From IMG/VR virus record IMGVR_UViG_3300037628_000039, positions 1 through 38,302 of that record: a DNA stretch of 38,302 nt. The stretch is one strand, 5' to 3'. The stretch comes from a virus. Of this stretch, positions 8,856 to 38,118 are shown piece by piece. Each line of letters starts with the position of its first letter. Position 1 is the first letter of the stretch. Below the pieces are notes generated by a model, which had not been told where the DNA came from, searched no databases, and was given only the letters and a program-made list of their open reading frames with translations. Both the position numbers and the translations under genes were made by a program.

Positions 8856-9926
8856 TTAAGATTTTTCATTTTGATCTTCTGCCATAGCCATTTGCTGTGC
8901 TGAATTTATTATTTGTGGATCTCTTATAACTATACCTGAGTATTTTAATATGTTTAATATAGTTTCTGTTTGATCAGTGTTGTCAATTTCAAATTGGGTA
9001 GATCCATATGTAGTCCCGCTGTATAGGCTAGCAGCTGTTAAAGTAACAACAGCGTCGGTTCCACCACCACCACCACCACCTGCTTGAAAAACAGAATTAG
9101 AAAAAGTTATAGTTTCACCAGCTACAAAACCTGTCCCGCTTGATCCATCAACATTTAAATTAGTTATAACTCCAGAAGAGTTCATTGTTAAAGTAAACTT
9201 TAACCCAGTGCCATTGCCTGTATAATTTACGCCAGCGGATGATATAGTTAAACCAGACCATACTATACTAGTTGGCTGACTTGAAGTAGCCACAAAATTA
9301 GTTGTTAAGCTTTGAAATAAATAATTATCAACTATAGGTAAGCCTGTAGGTATGTAAGCATTGTTGTCGTACAGGTATTGTCCTAAACCTCCTACAGTGT
9401 AACCAAATCTTATGTTGCTAGGTTTTCTTATGTATGTTACTGAAATATCTGACTGTATAGACGATGGCTCTATATATATTTTTGGATCTGGAGTAGTAGT
9501 TAATTTATCCTCGTATGAATACACGGGAAAAGATGTTGTTGGCTTTGTTAAAGGTGAAAGTTTTAGATATAGTAAATCATTTCTTTGAACTCTTTCAGCT
9601 TCTATTGACTGCTTGTATATCACAGTTCCTAATCTATGGACATTGTTAGGTGGTGTAAAAAGTTTATTAGTACCATTCCAGGTACAATCGCCTTGAGTTT
9701 TAAATATAGATATTTTATCATCTACATTTTTAACTCTATCGGCATATTCTGTTTCATCTTGACGTATACGTAAATTCTGATTCAAGTCTTCAAAATACTT
9801 TTCAAATATTTCTAACTGAACCTGTGTACCTGTTTTATTAAATTCATCAGGAGTTATATATCCTCTCTGCTCTTTGTTTAATATTAATAAAACCGTTTTA
9901 TAAACTTCATTTACGTTTATTGCCAT
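8856..9926 (-). CDS. Ring/adaptor protein with inserted Gly-rich domain, 356 aa
   Basis: I chose ATG at 9926 (MAINVNEVYKTVLLILNKEQ) over the upstream ATG at 9965. The 13 extra residues (MVLSPPFFFKNIK) would be encoded inside the intrinsic terminator and its A-tract at 9939-9969. The first ~210 residues (ITPDEFNKTGTQVQLEIFEK, VTYIRKPSNIRFGYTVGGLG) and the last ~50 (FEIDNTDQTETILNILKYSG, IRDPQIINSAQQMAMAED) look like one conserved ring-type core. In between lies a beta insertion rich in Ser/Gly/Thr ending in seven consecutive glycines. Neighbours are the 266-aa gene upstream, beyond a terminator, and the other ring-like gene downstream. Role inferred: part of the connector under the portal. Confidence 0.7.
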   Translation of the reverse strand: MAINVNEVYKTVLLILNKEQRGYITPDEFNKTGTQVQLEIFEKYFEDLNQNLRIRQDETEYADRVKNVDDKISIFKTQGDCTWNGTNKLFTPPNNVHRLGTVIYKQSIEAERVQRNDLLYLKLSPLTKPTTSFPVYSYEDKLTTTPDPKIYIEPSSIQSDISVTYIRKPSNIRFGYTVGGLGQYLYDNNAYIPTGLPIVDNYLFQSLTTNFVATSSQPTSIVWSGLTISSAGVNYTGNGTGLKFTLTMNSSGVITNLNVDGSSGTGFVAGETITFSNSVFQAGGGGGGGTDAVVTLTAASLYSGTTYGSTQFEIDNTDQTETILNILKYSGIVIRDPQIINSAQQMAMAEDQNEKS

Positions 9927-29943: not shown

Positions 29944-30352
29944 ATTCTATTGCTTTTGTTATTACTTTGTAACTATATTTGTTAATATTTTCTAATTTTG
30001 TTGTAGGCATATCTTCTTCACCTAGCATAATACGGTACATGCGACTTATCAGCTGTTTGCACTTATAGGAAACTTTATATATATGATATTTTTGAGTGGT
30101 GCGGTTTCGTTTCCTCCACACTGTGATCCACCCTTGTTTCAATAATCTGTTCCAGCGCCTGTTATCCCAGCTGAATGAGTACGTACCTTTTTTAAAATCA
30201 TCTTTAGTAAACATGTCTATAGCGTCTAAATAAATTAGTAGCTCTAGATCTGCGTCTGTTAACTTATTGGTTTTACAAGCCCACTTTCGTATTATTCTAT
30301 AGTGCTTAAGTAATCCTAGATCTTTTAAATCACTAGATGTTAGTTTTCTCAT
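29918..30352 (-). CDS. Winged-helix (MarR-like) DNA-binding protein candidate, 144 aa
   Basis: A helix-rich N-terminus (LTDADLELLIYLDAIDMFTK, about 31-50) is followed by a possible recognition helix (SWDNRRWNRLLKQGW, about 61-75) and a basic two-stranded wing (ITVWRKRNRTTQKYHIYKVS, about 76-95), then further helices. This layout, with Arg/Lys/Trp in the wing, is the pattern of MarR-like winged-helix proteins. It overlaps groES by four bases (ATGA, 30349-30352), so it is made with the chaperonins and may control late genes or bind DNA during packaging. The fold is inferred from pattern and no search was run. Confidence 0.6.
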   Translation of the reverse strand: MRKLTSSDLKDLGLLKHYRIIRKWACKTNKLTDADLELLIYLDAIDMFTKDDFKKGTYSFSWDNRRWNRLLKQGWITVWRKRNRTTQKYHIYKVSYKCKQLISRMYRIMLGEEDMPTTKLENINKYSYKVITKAIEYANKDKTR

Positions 30353-30609
30353 AGAATAACTACTACATCATGTTCTTTAATTACTTTATATTCTTCTTTT
30401 TTAATTTCAATATTAAAACCAGATGATCTGTCATAATAAACTTCATCACCTTTTTTTAATACAGACACATCAGAGCCAGGTTCTATAACCTTAGCTCTTC
30501 TGTATCTAACATCTTCTCTTTGCTTTTCAGCTAGAATTAATCCGCCTTTTGTTTGAACATCAACTTCTTTGATTGGTTCAATAACTATATATTTACCTAC
30601 TGCTTTCAT
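30349..30609 (-). CDS. groES: Phage GroES-like co-chaperonin, 86 aa
   Basis: Small beta-barrel chaperonin-10. The start (KAVGKYIVIEPIKEVDVQTK) leads into the mobile loop with the hydrophobic tripeptide (GGLILAEKQ, about 22-30; GGIVL in E. coli), then YRRAKVIEPGSDV, LKKGDEVYYDRSSGF and a final strand EEYKVIKEHDVVVIL, equivalent to the GroES ending EVLIMSESDILAI. At 86 aa it is a little shorter than the 97-aa E. coli protein. It caps the GroEL ring. Its ATG overlaps the groEL stop (ATGA, 30606-30609): groEL comes first, the reverse of the usual bacterial groES-groEL order. Confidence 0.85.
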   Translation of the reverse strand: MKAVGKYIVIEPIKEVDVQTKGGLILAEKQREDVRYRRAKVIEPGSDVSVLKKGDEVYYDRSSGFNIEIKKEEYKVIKEHDVVVIL

Positions 30610-32150
30610 GCTCTCACGTTATTGATTACACAATCAGTTGATAATATAGTTGTAGCTACTGAAGCTGCGTTAATTAGTGCACTCTTAGTAACTAACAAAG
30701 GATCTATAATTCCGGCTTTTACCATGTCCACCGTATTTCCTGTAACCACATCTAATCCTTTACCTTCTTCAAGTTTTTGCATTTCATTAATACCAGCATT
30801 TTTTAATATTAATTCATGAGGTCTTCTTATAGCTTGGTATAATACTTCCTCACCTATGCATGTTGGTTTCAAATTAAAACTAGCATTTAATAAAGCTATA
30901 CCACCTCCTGGTACTATACCTTCTTTAATCGCAGCTTTTGTAGCGCAAATAGCGTCTTCAACTCTATCTCTCTTCTCTTTTAATTCTATCTCAGAGTTAG
31001 CCCCAACTTTAACTGTAGCAACCTTAGCCTTTAACTTAGCTAATCGTTTCTCTAGTCTAATAATAATATTAGGGTTTTTAGTTTCTTTTATATTACTCTC
31101 TAGTAAAGCAACAGTTTCCTTAACGTCTTCATTAGTTGATAAGTCAACTTGGAGTATAGTTTCTTCATGATTAGTAACTGATCTCATGCATGATCCTAAG
31201 TGTTCAGGACTTATAATGTCCATATCATCTCCTAGATCTTCGTTAATAAGTGTAGCGCCAGTAACAGCACATAGATCGCTTAACACGTCTTTCTTGCTGA
31301 TTCCGTATATTGGCGCATCTATGATGTTGACTTTTATATTACCCTTCGTTTTATTCATAGCCAGCGCGGAAATCACTTGTGGGTCAACATCTGCAATGAT
31401 AAGAAGACTCTTACCATTTTTAATAATATATTCTAAAACAGACTGTATTTTTCTAACATTAGGTATAACTGATTCAACTATTAAAACTAAAGGGTTTTCA
31501 AGCTCAGCAGTTCCTTTTTCTTTGTTAGTAATAAAATGGTTGTTTTTTAAAGGTCTATCATATTGAACACCTTCTATTAACTCTACTACAGTTTCAGGTT
31601 GTTCATTTGTTTCCATCATAACAACACCTGTTTCATCTACTAATCTAAATGCTTCACCTATAACTTTACCTAACTCTTTATCATTGTTAGCAGATATGGT
31701 AGCCACTTGGTCAATCTTCTTACCAGTAACTTTTTTAGACTTCTTATTTAAATACTTTATAACTTTGTCAACACCTGAGTCAATACCTTTTTTCATCTCT
31801 CTTGGATCATCAAGAAGAGAATGTTCTGTAGCTTGATCTAATATAGCTTTAGCTAGCACTGTAGCTGTAGTTGTGCCGTCGCCAGCATCTGACACTGTTC
31901 TTTGAGCCGCTTGTTTGATTAGCGTAGCTCCGATGTTTTCTAATGGATCTTGCAACGTTATGCTATTAGCAACTGTTACTCCATCTTTTGTTATCTGTGG
32001 TGCACCATTACTATCTTCTAGTATAACACATTTACCACTTGCCCCTAAAGTTGATCCTACTGCATTAGTAAGTTTTTCAACTCCAGTTAATATCTGACTT
32101 CTGGCATTATCACCAAAAGCCAGATTTTTAACTAACTTTAATTCTTGCAT
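30606..32150 (-). CDS. groEL: Phage GroEL chaperonin, 514 aa
   Basis: Group I chaperonin. Key parts: FGDNARSQILTGVEKL start, QITKDGV (D56), SDAGDGTTTATVLA (D91, matching E. coli D87), GVQYDRPLKNNHFI, apical stretch with IQSVLEYI, RVEDAICATKAA (D399, matching catalytic D398), VPGGGIALL (415-417), and GIIDPLLVTKSAL (D483, matching D495). The nucleotide-binding and hydrolysis residues are thus present, so it should be active. It is shorter than the 548-aa E. coli protein: the segment before GIIDP is condensed and the C-terminal GGM-repeat tail is missing (it ends TILSTDCVINNVRA). It likely folds phage capsid, tail or host proteins with the adjacent GroES. Confidence 0.95.
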   Translation of the reverse strand: MQELKLVKNLAFGDNARSQILTGVEKLTNAVGSTLGASGKCVILEDSNGAPQITKDGVTVANSITLQDPLENIGATLIKQAAQRTVSDAGDGTTTATVLAKAILDQATEHSLLDDPREMKKGIDSGVDKVIKYLNKKSKKVTGKKIDQVATISANNDKELGKVIGEAFRLVDETGVVMMETNEQPETVVELIEGVQYDRPLKNNHFITNKEKGTAELENPLVLIVESVIPNVRKIQSVLEYIIKNGKSLLIIADVDPQVISALAMNKTKGNIKVNIIDAPIYGISKKDVLSDLCAVTGATLINEDLGDDMDIISPEHLGSCMRSVTNHEETILQVDLSTNEDVKETVALLESNIKETKNPNIIIRLEKRLAKLKAKVATVKVGANSEIELKEKRDRVEDAICATKAAIKEGIVPGGGIALLNASFNLKPTCIGEEVLYQAIRRPHELILKNAGINEMQKLEEGKGLDVVTGNTVDMVKAGIIDPLLVTKSALINAASVATTILSTDCVINNVRA

Positions 32151-32474: not shown

Positions 32475-32510
32475 TGTATTTGGTTTTAAGTTAAACGTTG
32501 GTTATTATAT

Positions 32511-32526
32511 ACTATCACTTGATAGT
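32511..32526. repeat. Perfect inverted repeat between the fibre and the 96-aa gene
   Basis: ACTATCA-CT-TGATAGT: seven-base arms (32511-32517, 32520-32526) separated by two bases. It lies just after the stop of the S74 fibre gene (32535). There is no clear T-run after it on the minus strand (TATATAATAACC), so it may be a weak terminator, RNA-processing hairpin or operator; I cannot choose between these. Confidence 0.5.
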
Positions 32527-32534
32527 TCGGTTAT

Positions 32535-35826: not shown

Positions 35827-35919
35827 ATGAAGAAACTAGAGAAAACAAAGATAATTACAAGTATAGTACTTAATATAATAAAAATAGTCGATGTATTGAT
35901 TAATGTCACAAAAGTGTGA
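35827..35919 (+). CDS. 30-aa hydrophobic/basic micro-ORF ending in stem-loops
   Basis: ATG at 35827 opens a 30-codon frame reading MKKLEKTKIITSIVLNIIKI followed by VDVLINVTKV, stop TGA at 35917-35919. Lys residues at the N-terminus and a hydrophobic, Ile/Val-rich core could form an amphipathic or membrane-seeking helix, similar in shape to tiny phage or toxin-like peptides. The end of the frame runs into the first stem-loop (35904-35921). An A/T-rich box ATATAATATAC lies directly before the start. Without homologues it could be a chance frame in a regulatory region. Confidence 0.35.
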   Translation: MKKLEKTKIITSIVLNIIKIVDVLINVTKV

Positions 35920-35969
35920 CAATAGCCTGTTACTAGGCTAGGTCTAACGGCCTAATGTCACTGTTTTTT
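35904..35969 (+). promoter_or_regulatory. Tandem stem-loops with alternative pairings and a T-run
   Basis: Three adjacent hairpins are visible: TGTCACA-AAAG-TGTGACA (35904-35921), TAGCCT-GTTACT-AGGCTA (35923-35940) and TAGGTC-TAAC-GGCCTA (35939-35954, one G-T pair). A run of six T is at 35964-35969. GTGACA (35916-35921) can also pair with TGTCAC (35956-35961), enclosing the other two hairpins in a three-way junction, so the first hairpin and this outer stem are mutually exclusive. The site lies in the divergent region between the two gene blocks. It may be a terminator/antiterminator switch, a protein-binding site or a replication element; I cannot decide. Confidence 0.55.
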
Positions 35970-36099: not shown

Positions 36100-36150
36100 T
36101 CGTTTATATATATTTATAATTTTTAAAAAATGTACAAACATACAAGCTAA

Positions 36151-36180
36151 CTACATAGACATGTAGATAATATAAATATA
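36151..36180 (+). promoter_or_regulatory. Palindrome plus leader element, copy 1
   Basis: CTACAT-AGAC-ATGTAG (36151-36166, six-base arms) runs directly into AGATAATATAAATATA (36165-36180), the first copy of an element repeated before plus-strand genes. It sits about 40 bases before the ATG of the 26-codon frame at 36205. The palindrome abutting the conserved box looks like an operator over a promoter. Confidence 0.45.
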
Positions 36181-36204
36181 ATTAACAACTAAACAAATAA
36201 ACAA

Positions 36205-36285
36205 ATGCAAATTAAAAAGAAATTAAACACATTAATAATAATTACTATAATATTATTACTAATCAATGAGATATTTCTAATGTAA
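36205..36285 (+). CDS. 26-aa membrane micro-ORF
   Basis: ATG at 36205 to TAA at 36283-36285. Reads MQIKKKLNTLIIITIILLLI then NEIFLM: a basic N-terminus and one transmembrane stretch. It has a leader element of the same type as the other plus-strand genes, at a similar distance (about 40 bases from element start to ATG), which favours it being real. Single-pass mini membrane proteins are common in phage early regions, but no function is known. Confidence 0.45.
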   Translation: MQIKKKLNTLIIITIILLLINEIFLM

Positions 36286-36373
36286 GATACTTAGAGAATA
36301 TGTGTAAGACTTTTAACTAATAATTAACATACAAATAAAACTACACTCTTACAAACTAAACACAACTAACAAA

Positions 36374-36395
36374 CGATAATATAAATATAAACTAA
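36374..36395 (+). promoter_or_regulatory. Leader element, copy 2
   Basis: CGATAATATAAATATAAACT begins at 36374, followed by AA. It lies 38 bases before the ATG at 36412, similar to copies 1 and 3. The repeat of the same box at constant distance before separate genes suggests a promoter recognised by the phage's or host's RNA polymerase. Confidence 0.5.
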
Positions 36396-36411
36396 ATAAT
36401 AAATATAAACT

Positions 36412-36648
36412 ATGAATAATAATAAACTAACAACAAAAAGATTTGTAATAAGAAAATCTTTACTCGGTACAAATACAGTAATTACATTTACTAATAATAA
36501 AGAAGTTACTTTCACTTATGATCATGATGAGATTTACTCAACATATCAAGAAAAGTTCGAATCAATGTCTTGCTTTCAACAGTATAAATCTTATACAAAT
36601 TCTAACACTGTTCCAAAATTCTGTAGAGAATTAAGTACTCAGTCTTAA
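36412..36648 (+). CDS. Small plus-strand protein, 78 aa, unknown (early block)
   Basis: Starts MNNNKLTTKRFVIRKSLLGT, followed by a beta stretch (NTVITFTNNKEVTFTYDHDE) and a Cys-containing helical end (FESMSCFQQYKSYTNSNTVP). Soluble, no motif recognised. First sizeable gene of the plus-strand block, preceded by leader element copy 2, and therefore probably one of the first genes expressed after infection. Function unknown. Confidence 0.65.
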   Translation: MNNNKLTTKRFVIRKSLLGTNTVITFTNNKEVTFTYDHDEIYSTYQEKFESMSCFQQYKSYTNSNTVPKFCRELSTQS

Positions 36649-36655
36649 AACTAAA

Positions 36656-36686
36656 AGTCGAAGTTGATAGTAATACTTTAACGACT
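36656..36686 (+). terminator. Imperfect hairpin after the 78-aa gene
   Basis: AGTCG-AAGT (36656-36664) can pair with ACTT (36675-36678) and CGACT (36682-36686), leaving a 10-base loop and a TAA bulge. It lies 8 bases after the stop at 36648. No T-run follows (ATAAATAAC), so it is a weak terminator candidate or an RNA structure. Confidence 0.3.
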
Positions 36687-36731
36687 ATAAATAACACGAA
36701 CATATTACTCAGCACAAATACAAACTAATTA

Positions 36732-36764
36732 CGACAAAGTGTCGATACTATAAATATAAACTAA
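36732..36764 (+). promoter_or_regulatory. Palindrome plus leader element, copy 3
   Basis: CGACA-AAG-TGTCG (36732-36744) overlaps the start of CGATACTATAAATATAAACT (from 36743), the third copy of the leader element; it differs from copy 2 at one base (C for A). The ATG of the 66-aa gene follows at 36778, 35 bases from the element's start. As at copy 1, a short palindrome abuts the element. Confidence 0.5.
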
Positions 36765-36777
36765 TAAATAAATAACT

Positions 36778-36978
36778 ATGTATAATCCTAATAATCCTTC
36801 AAATTGGTCTTGGTCAAAAGCTTTCCAAGAAGTTGAAGACACAGTAAATCAAGCTGAACTTACTCAACAATCTATAAATCACGTACTAAATTATCCTGGT
36901 GAGGCTAATGGTGTCTATATGTCACTAAGTAAATCACAACAAGATGATGTTTACGATATACTAAATCAAATATTATGA
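36778..36978 (+). CDS. Small acidic protein, 66 aa, unknown (early block)
   Basis: Starts MYNPNNPSNWSWSKAFQEVE, then a helix-rich Gln/Glu/Val sequence (DTVNQAELTQQSINHVLNYP) and SLSKSQQDDVYDILNQIL. Soluble, acidic, no motif. Its stop overlaps the next start (ATGA, 36975-36978), so it is co-translated with the 39-aa frame. Preceded by the third leader element. Confidence 0.65.
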   Translation: MYNPNNPSNWSWSKAFQEVEDTVNQAELTQQSINHVLNYPGEANGVYMSLSKSQQDDVYDILNQIL

Positions 36979-37094
36979 CAACTATAGAAAAAATAGCTCT
37001 TGAAGAATTCAATATAGAATACTCTCAACTTGGAGAGAACGAGCAACAATGGTGCCATGACGAAATGGTAAATAATAATAAACACTTAAAATAA
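36975..37094 (+). CDS. 39-aa protein, unknown (early block)
   Basis: ATG at 36975 overlaps the preceding TGA. It reads MTTIEKIALEEFNIEYSQLG and ends WCHDEMVNNNKHLK at TAA 37092-37094. A short helix with one Cys and His. The ATGA coupling and compact fit between two genes support it being real. Function unknown. Confidence 0.55.
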   Translation: MTTIEKIALEEFNIEYSQLGENEQQWCHDEMVNNNKHLK

Positions 37095-37096
37095 AT

Positions 37097-37375
37097 ATGA
37101 AAAAACTAATAATATCAGTTGGCGCTTTACTGTTAATGTCGTCAGCGACTAACAAAACTTATCCGTCAGATCAACTCTGTATGTCTATGTTGAATATAAA
37201 CGAACTTAACGAGTGGATATGGCAAGACTATCAAAATGGTAAAATAACAGAAGAACAAGCAGAAATGTATAGTGAACTACTACAAGAAACTTATACGTTC
37301 ATTGAAGATTACTACCAACATCTACCTGACGGAACTTACTATCAATTTGATTTACAAACTGAACACAATTACTAA
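37097..37375 (+). CDS. Small protein with signal peptide, 92 aa (early block)
   Basis: The N-terminus MKKLIISVGALLLMSSATNK has the n-h pattern of a signal peptide with a likely cleavage near Ser-Ala (SSA), so it is probably exported to the periplasm or held at the inner membrane. The mature part is acidic and aromatic (NEWIWQDYQNGKITEEQAEM; IEDYYQHLPDGTYYQFDLQT). An exported phage early protein could act in superinfection exclusion or envelope change, but this is inference. It starts two bases after the preceding stop. Confidence 0.6.
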   Translation: MKKLIISVGALLLMSSATNKTYPSDQLCMSMLNINELNEWIWQDYQNGKITEEQAEMYSELLQETYTFIEDYYQHLPDGTYYQFDLQTEHNY

Positions 37376-37377
37376 AC

Positions 37378-37393
37378 GATAATATAACTAAAA
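37378..37393 (+). promoter_or_regulatory. Leader element, copy 4 (short)
   Basis: CGATAATATAACTAAA begins at 37378, 24 bases before the ATG at 37402. It shares the CGATAATATAA core with copies 1-3 but is shorter and nearer the start, so it may be a weaker or decayed copy. Confidence 0.35.
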
Positions 37394-37401
37394 TAAATAA
37401 T

Positions 37402-37620
37402 ATGAATATAAAACAACATAAAGCTAAACTAAATAAAAAGTACAATCAAGCAATTGTAGACGAAGTCCTCAACACTATGTGGTCAAAGCTCGGTAACGAG
37501 TTAGATAATGTGATGATGGAATCAGGTGATTACTCTGAAACTAACAATGAAATGTTTGACGATCAAGATCACTACATGGGAATTATTTGCAACACTATGA
37601 AACTACAATGCGATGAGTGA
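37402..37620 (+). CDS. Small protein, 72 aa, unknown (early block)
   Basis: Starts MNIKQHKAKLNKKYNQAIVD and continues as an alpha-helical, acidic protein (EVLNTMWSKLGNELDNVMME; YSETNNEMFDDQDHYMGIIC). Ends at TGA 37618-37620; the following gene's ATG lies inside its end. No motif. Its Asp/Glu/Met-rich C-terminal half could be a DNA-mimic-like surface, but I have no proof. Confidence 0.6.
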   Translation: MNIKQHKAKLNKKYNQAIVDEVLNTMWSKLGNELDNVMMESGDYSETNNEMFDDQDHYMGIICNTMKLQCDE

Positions 37621-37783: not shown

Positions 37784-37967
37784 AGATAGAGAATGGGATT
37801 TTATTGATGAAGCACATCATAAACTATCAGATGAAAAAACTTTACTAGCAACTTTTGCAATAGTAGTCAACGAACTAGCTATAAAGTGTCCTAATGACCA
37901 AGAACTAGGTAAAGAAGTAAGACAACTAATAAAAGATTACAAACTAAATACGAATACTAATGGATAA
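37776..37967 (+). CDS. Small protein, 63 aa, unknown (early block)
   Basis: Starts MNRDREWDFIDEAHHKLSDE with an acidic, His-containing helix, then a mildly hydrophobic helix (TLLATFAIVVNELAIKCPND) and a Lys/Asn tail. The eight-base overlap with the preceding frame suggests co-translation. No signal peptide or motif. Function unknown. Confidence 0.6.
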   Translation: MNRDREWDFIDEAHHKLSDEKTLLATFAIVVNELAIKCPNDQELGKEVRQLIKDYKLNTNTNG

Positions 37968-37974
37968 TAATAAC

Positions 37975-38118
37975 ATGAAAACAATTAAATTTTACCCAAG
38001 CGACAGATCACTAATTAGATTAGACGGTCAAATGCTAAAAGGCTACACTATTAATAATATACCAGACGAATATACAAGCTGGTTTAACTACAAAGGACTT
38101 ACTTACATAACAAGTTAA
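37975..38118 (+). CDS. 47-aa protein, unknown (early block)
   Basis: ATG at 37975, TAA at 38116-38118. Reads MKTIKFYPSDRSLIRLDGQM, then LKGYTINNIPDEYTSWFNYK and GLTYITS, mostly beta with several aromatic residues. It starts seven bases after the previous stop. No motif; the beta-hairpin style resembles small phage regulators, but function is unknown. Confidence 0.5.
   Translation: MKTIKFYPSDRSLIRLDGQMLKGYTINNIPDEYTSWFNYKGLTYITS

Follow-up and report, generated by a model that had tools for sequence, protein, structure and literature searches.

A repeated 39-bp promoter-type element that occurs together with a phage sigma factor gene

A 39-bp element is repeated at gene starts in the virus record IMGVR_UViG_3300037628_000039 and in related loci, and this element family almost certainly consists of promoters, as judged from its sequence and arrangement. 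The promoters are probably read by the RNA polymerase core of the host together with a sigma factor encoded by the phage. The DNA analysed, termed the window, is the entire record (38,302 bases). An earlier sequence-only reading had pointed to a short box at four gene starts; these boxes would be the -10 parts of a phage promoter family that displays a -35-type block, a spacer block and a -10 block at fixed distances.

The window and its relatives

The minus strand of the window carries structural and chaperonin genes. The plus strand has very small genes from about 36.1 kb to the contig end, which truncates this block; the block, which contains the elements, looks early by its position, as the sequence-only reading had proposed. 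The terminase is related to those of phages of Flavobacterium, Cellulophaga, Tenacibaculum and Maribacter (the nearest is MW202828, 62.7%), and also to those of many uncultured contigs. Judged from the cultured relatives, Bacteroidota is the likely host phylum of the phage group. Among contigs, G020 is the nearest (91.6% in the terminase) and spans the first two boxes. The window is without a sigma gene; it ends before the position where relatives have this gene.

GroES and GroEL chaperonin genes of the phage are at positions 30349–32150 on the minus strand, and the GroEL has less than 60% identity to every GroEL in the phage collection. At 32475–32534 (minus strand), upstream of a 96-aa open reading frame, there is a short hairpin, ACTATCAAGTGATAGT, followed by ATATAATAACC, which is common to the window and G020 and is a candidate late regulatory site. 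In the gaps upstream of the minus-strand open reading frames that start at 9926 and 10785, T runs follow stem-loops rich in G+C (AGGGTGGTTTTATCGCCACCC and GATCCCGTTTCGGCGGGGTC). These are kept in G020 and are taken as intrinsic terminators between late genes. On the minus strand, a de novo search for late promoters returned nothing beyond coding or terminator signals and leaders rich in A/T. No relatives of a neighbouring 151-aa protein were found in IMG/VR.

The element and its five copies in the window

The full unit is about 39 bp and has the form TTACAAAC-T-AAATACGA-N9-GATAATATAAATA with fixed spacing; the box described earlier is its 3′ third only. The four boxes are where they had been placed, to within one base (GATAAT-type starts at 36166, 36375, 36744 and 37378), and are followed by ATGs at 36205, 36412, 36778 and 37402. 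The core, GATAATATAANTAWAA, is present with 0–1 mismatch at all four boxes. The 20-mer reported as repeated was recovered in part: it occurs with three or fewer mismatches at 36374 and 36743 (chance 0.00), but this accounts for only two of the four places. A near-exact search with this 20-mer (one base open) found one contig only. In addition, GATAATATAANTAWAA with three or fewer mismatches is common in the window (41 matches versus 20.3 expected), and thus the short box alone is a weak claim. What is decisive is that an upstream half pairs with the box: the two halves form five pairs at offset 24, and no pair at any of the other 19 offsets between 15 and 34.

A 39-nt profile of the element (35.8 bits), with the window absent from its training set and a site cut-off score of 12, gives exactly five sites at or above the cut-off, and every one is on the plus strand. 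In sixty Markov copies of the window, one such site was found in total.

Element 1 (positions 36140–36178, plus strand) has GATAAT at 36166–36171 and a profile score of 28.2, and a 26-aa open reading frame (36205–36285, plus strand) stands behind it. The box of this element is conserved in G020; the open reading frame is not. Element 2 (36349–36387, plus strand; GATAAT at 36375–36380; score 39.6) is conserved in G020 together with its upstream sequence. It precedes a 78-aa open reading frame (36412–36648, plus strand), and relatives of the 78-aa protein stand behind other copies of the element. Element 3 (36718–36756, plus strand) displays GATACT at 36744–36749, has a score of 27.0 and is followed by a 66-aa open reading frame (36778–36978, plus strand). 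Element 4 (37352–37390, plus strand; GATAAT at 37378–37383; score 34.2) overlaps the 3′ end of the open reading frame at 37097–37375 and precedes a 72-aa open reading frame (37402–37620, plus strand).

Element 5 (37937–37975, plus strand; GATAAT at 37963–37968) was not in the original set of boxes and has the best score in the window, 45.0. Its ATG, at 37975, is exactly 12 nt after the G of GATAAT and opens a 47-aa open reading frame (37975–38118, plus strand), which the open reading frame tool starts at an earlier ATG, 37960. A start similar to that of the 47-aa frame, MKTIKFYPSNRS, is found behind another copy of the element in a relative.

Palindromes beside two of the boxes had been proposed as operator sites. 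Both palindromes exist in the sequence, but their abutment to the boxes is at chance level, and as operators they failed the tests for conservation and for hairpin excess. The palindrome at 36151–36166 is not kept in G020, and the second is beyond the contig end of G020. Hairpins are present in 19 of 339 element sites, compared with 20.1 ± 4.4 after column permutation. Operator palindromes at these places are rejected as being at chance level.

Occurrence in related loci

Relatives with longer plus-strand blocks have the box before successive genes, and upstream of it a second conserved stretch. A seed regular expression gave 28 plus-strand and no minus-strand matches in 17 sequences. For a larger set, 80 loci (1.30 Mb) were fetched by the sigma protein, and the profile was refined on plus-strand sites only. 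A motif search over the genome and its relatives had been suggested as a check; beside the five window sites, it gives 339 sites on the sigma strand of the 80 loci, 2 on the other strand and 0 in Markov sequence (score of at least 12), where the loci are related, some being nearly identical, so that the 339 sites are not independent trials. GATAATATA alone has 252 occurrences in these loci on the sigma strand versus 30 on the opposite strand; the reversed sequence has 42 and 20. An expectation-maximisation search on 86 early upstream regions, to which the motif was not given, returned the same element. Strand bias, fixed geometry, position at gene starts and de novo rediscovery in relatives bear out the earlier suggestion of a phage-specific promoter family.

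Predicted start site

With GATAAT placed at -12 to -7, the -35-type block TTACAAAC is at -38 to -31 and the spacer block AAATACGA at -29 to -22. The -10 block is GATAATA (-12 to -6), and its G, A, T, A, A, T and A are each 99–100% conserved, a figure to be read with the fact that the training seed fixed that word.

In 73 of the 339 sites an ATG follows the G at a distance of exactly 12 nt; these ATGs belong to several protein families, and their A is exactly at the predicted +1. The 10–14 nt bin holds an ATG in 100 of 339 sites, versus 138 of 3000 random positions. Since the ATG is at the predicted +1, these mRNAs would be leaderless. This suggests that at about a fifth of the sites transcription may start on the A of the ATG. 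The mRNA from element 5 is likewise predicted to be leaderless, and elements 1–4, by the same +1 rule, would give leaders of 12 to 27 nt. Ten sites, in which the ATG is 6 nt after the G and precedes the predicted start, do not fit. The leader after the element is A/T-rich, as in Bacteroidota translation starts. For comparison, a study of Flavobacterium psychrophilum (PMC9723704) gives 5.5% of the mRNAs examined as leaderless.

The phage sigma factor

The group encodes a protein of 251–253 aa with sigma70 regions 2 and 4. For the protein from G012, the Pfam values for these two regions are 9.6e-7 and 0.0017; the Pfam scores of the G010 protein are just below the curated cut-offs. The sigma protein also matches the PHROG sigma factor (3e-21) and SigA in the PDB (7.6e-8). 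The best PDB matches of an AlphaFold model (mean pLDDT 77.7, pTM 0.47) are sigma factors; the global TM-scores are low, which would be expected from a different arrangement of the domains. At an E-value of 0.01 the only annotated phage relatives are cyanophage sigma factors, with about 26% identity. The gene is present in G002, G010, G012 and G013 among the first relatives, and one scan found 222 sigma-bearing loci. In bacterial genomes it was found at 8 loci, all in MAG contigs with mixed labels (L336–L343: Ilumatobacteraceae, Aliivibrio, Halieaceae, Lewinella and others) and with no clear host. Most of these look like misbinned phage contigs.

The element is present in all 58 sigma loci that have at least 4 kb upstream, with a median of 6 copies. 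The reverse search, by motif alone, considered contigs of at least 55 kb from 80 listed of 119 motif loci, and three contigs already in the sigma set were left out. Among the matches listed, 23 of 24 such contigs have the sigma gene; in one of these 23, G073, the frame is broken by stops. The remaining contig, G080, has the motif and no sigma match, and the completeness of its ends is not established. Five relatives (MW202828, elemoE, phi38:1, Panino and phi19:3) display neither the element, at a score of at least 8, nor the sigma gene.

Most of the promoters are 5′ of the sigma gene. Two contigs, G072 (129.5 kb) and G064, have two sigma genes each, about 61–62 kb apart, and are perhaps joined or repeated genomes.

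Host-type promoters

The host -7 box, TAHHTTTG, is present in 46 of 185 upstream windows in the five sigma-less relatives, and in none of 164 in eight genomes of the group to which the window belongs. Three control patterns gave 7, 14 and 6 matches in the former and 2, 11 and 4 in the latter; control patterns in the sigma-less set range from 0 to 23 of 185. Among the 80 sigma loci, 37 of 1077 upstream windows contain the host box; seven control patterns gave 9 to 49, and the box is thus at control level, not absent. Full host-like promoters show no clustering at any place relative to the sigma gene. With the host box absent or at control level, the group does not appear to lean on host-type promoters. 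Identification of the element with host sigmaA promoters is rejected, because its consensus is without TAnnTTTG and the eight group genomes gave no match.

A companion inverted repeat and an HTH gene

The divergent region of the window has a conserved inverted repeat at positions 35916–35961, GTGACAATAGCC...GGCCTAATGTCAC (also written GTGACAATAGCCTGTTACTA...TAGGCTAATGTCAC), which is kept in eight aligned relatives. A further half site, TTAATGTCAC, is at 35900–35909, just before the repeat. An 8-codon open reading frame starts in the right arm of the repeat and encodes MSLFFVTD in the window and MSLFFITD in G020.

In relatives, another copy of the repeat overlaps the start codon of an HTH gene, g206, which is close upstream of the sigma gene. 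Among the 80 sigma loci, g206 is found in 74 and the repeat (as a regular expression) in 63. The fold z values of four repeat copies are -2.66, -2.16, 0.16 and -4.10; the third value is for an incomplete copy. The repeat at 35916–35961 is a candidate for an operator of the HTH protein or an RNA hairpin, and it is a likelier control site than the palindromes beside the boxes.

Interpretation

In the proposed mechanism, the host core RNA polymerase would take up the phage sigma factor and read the elements, which stand at gene starts scattered through the small-gene block 5′ of the sigma gene. The last promoter upstream may read through into the sigma gene, and this would produce a self-reinforcing loop. 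The co-occurrence of the element with a gene of the phage sigma70 family, and its placement before plus-strand genes, speak for this reading. The co-occurrence follows common descent, and is not proof of recognition. The position of the sigma gene 3′ of most promoters leaves the source of the first sigma protein unexplained. Entry into the loop could be by a virion-borne sigma, by weak use of the promoters by a host sigma, or by an unseen promoter.

The information content of the element, with its two upstream blocks, exceeds the usual need of a lone sigma factor, and another protein may share the site. A wider proposal, which is speculative and somewhat doubtful, is that this widespread uncultured lineage left the host promoter code completely in its plus-strand block, that the sigma factor and the HTH protein jointly read the three-block promoter, with many leaderless mRNAs, and that the first sigma, since no host-type promoter able to start the loop was found, must come from the virion or from an unrecognised promoter.

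Phage promoters that depend on a specific polymerase typically combine rigid spacing with high information content, and the element has both. It might be read by an unrecognised phage polymerase, e.g. a virion polymerase in the form of a fusion with the giant internal virion protein (2936 aa in G010), similar to those of P23-45, crAss-like phages or N4; the sequence-only reading had also mentioned a phage RNA polymerase. Such an enzyme would explain the making of the first transcripts, the giant protein is largely without assignment, and P23-45 provides a precedent (PMC10770324). This explanation is nevertheless improbable: no T7-type polymerase was detected in 38 contigs of the group, which may be incomplete, with T7 itself detected as control; PHROG searches with ten large G010 proteins gave structural or tail families or nothing; and a phage sigma factor is present instead. 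PDB profile searches with the giant virion protein gave no match. A scan for the two-barrel polymerase motif was empty, but as it was also empty for the annotated polymerase genes of crAss001, used as control, it has no bearing on this choice.

There is an equally slim chance that the host polymerase reads the element with a host sigma, the host belonging to a lineage with an unusual sigma, and that the phage sigma serves late genes. The small genes behind the element look early by position and are located 5′ of the sigma gene, as might be expected for early promoters that the host reads. However, motif and sigma gene occur together, the cultured relatives use the TAnnTTTG box and are without the element, and the element is unlike the Flavobacterium promoter types (TAnnTTTG, sigma54, TAnnTTGY and ECF) given in PMC9723704 and PMC6847099. 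A site of another kind, such as a translation enhancer, a recombination site or a mobile cassette boundary, is hardly credible. The element is very long, fixed and repeated, and the leader after it is A/T-rich, as such a site might be, but its single orientation, the +1-like spike of gene starts at 12 nt, the -10/-35-like register, the linkage to the sigma gene and the lack of a hairpin excess across the spacer all argue for promoters. Reading by the host core with the phage sigma factor is thus the preferred explanation.

If this reading is true, a large group of marine phages has its own promoter code, and this code is readable from sequence. Operons and predicted start sites could then be called directly in metagenomes, and sigma factor and promoter could be used as an orthogonal expression pair in Bacteroidota.

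Comparison with known systems

No paper on this sigma factor or promoter was found in a literature search that left most subscription journals and all bioRxiv preprints outside its scope. Promoters of the T7 type and of the N4/P23-45 polymerase type are similar to the element in being long, rigid, repeated and phage-specific. TAATACGA, which opens the T7 promoter, is shared with the element, likely by coincidence, and T7-type promoters are rejected on the search for a T7-type polymerase in the 38 contigs. N4 virion polymerase promoters have a conserved hairpin next to the start site; the element sites differ in that they show no hairpins above the permutation level. Bacteroidota sigmaA promoters (TTTG / TAnnTTTG) share with the element the likely host phylum and leaders without a Shine-Dalgarno sequence, but the element does not have TAnnTTTG.

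T4 middle promoters combine a -10 with a MotA box, which is a conserved block near -30; here a -35-type block and a spacer block are both present, and the -10 would go with a phage sigma. In the SPO1 gp28 and gp33/34 cascades, the phage sigma factors have -35 and -10 boxes of their own. The system described here is alike in this respect, but the SPO1 sequences differ, we know of no third block in SPO1 promoters, and the sigma gene here is located after most of its supposed targets. T4 late promoters with gp55, as well as the cyanophage ACG-2014f sigma, are similar in that the phage encodes a protein of the sigma70 family and the -10 is specific to the phage. The T4 late promoter is a short -10-only sequence, TATAAATA, at -13 to -6 (PMC1524935). 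The element differs from it in having two more conserved blocks upstream, and the position of the ATG, 12 nt after the G, rules out the TATAAATA register at 73 sites; membership in the T4 late (gp55) class is rejected on these grounds. The element would thus work like the sigma-switching promoters of T4 and SPO1, as a class separate from that of T4 late promoters.
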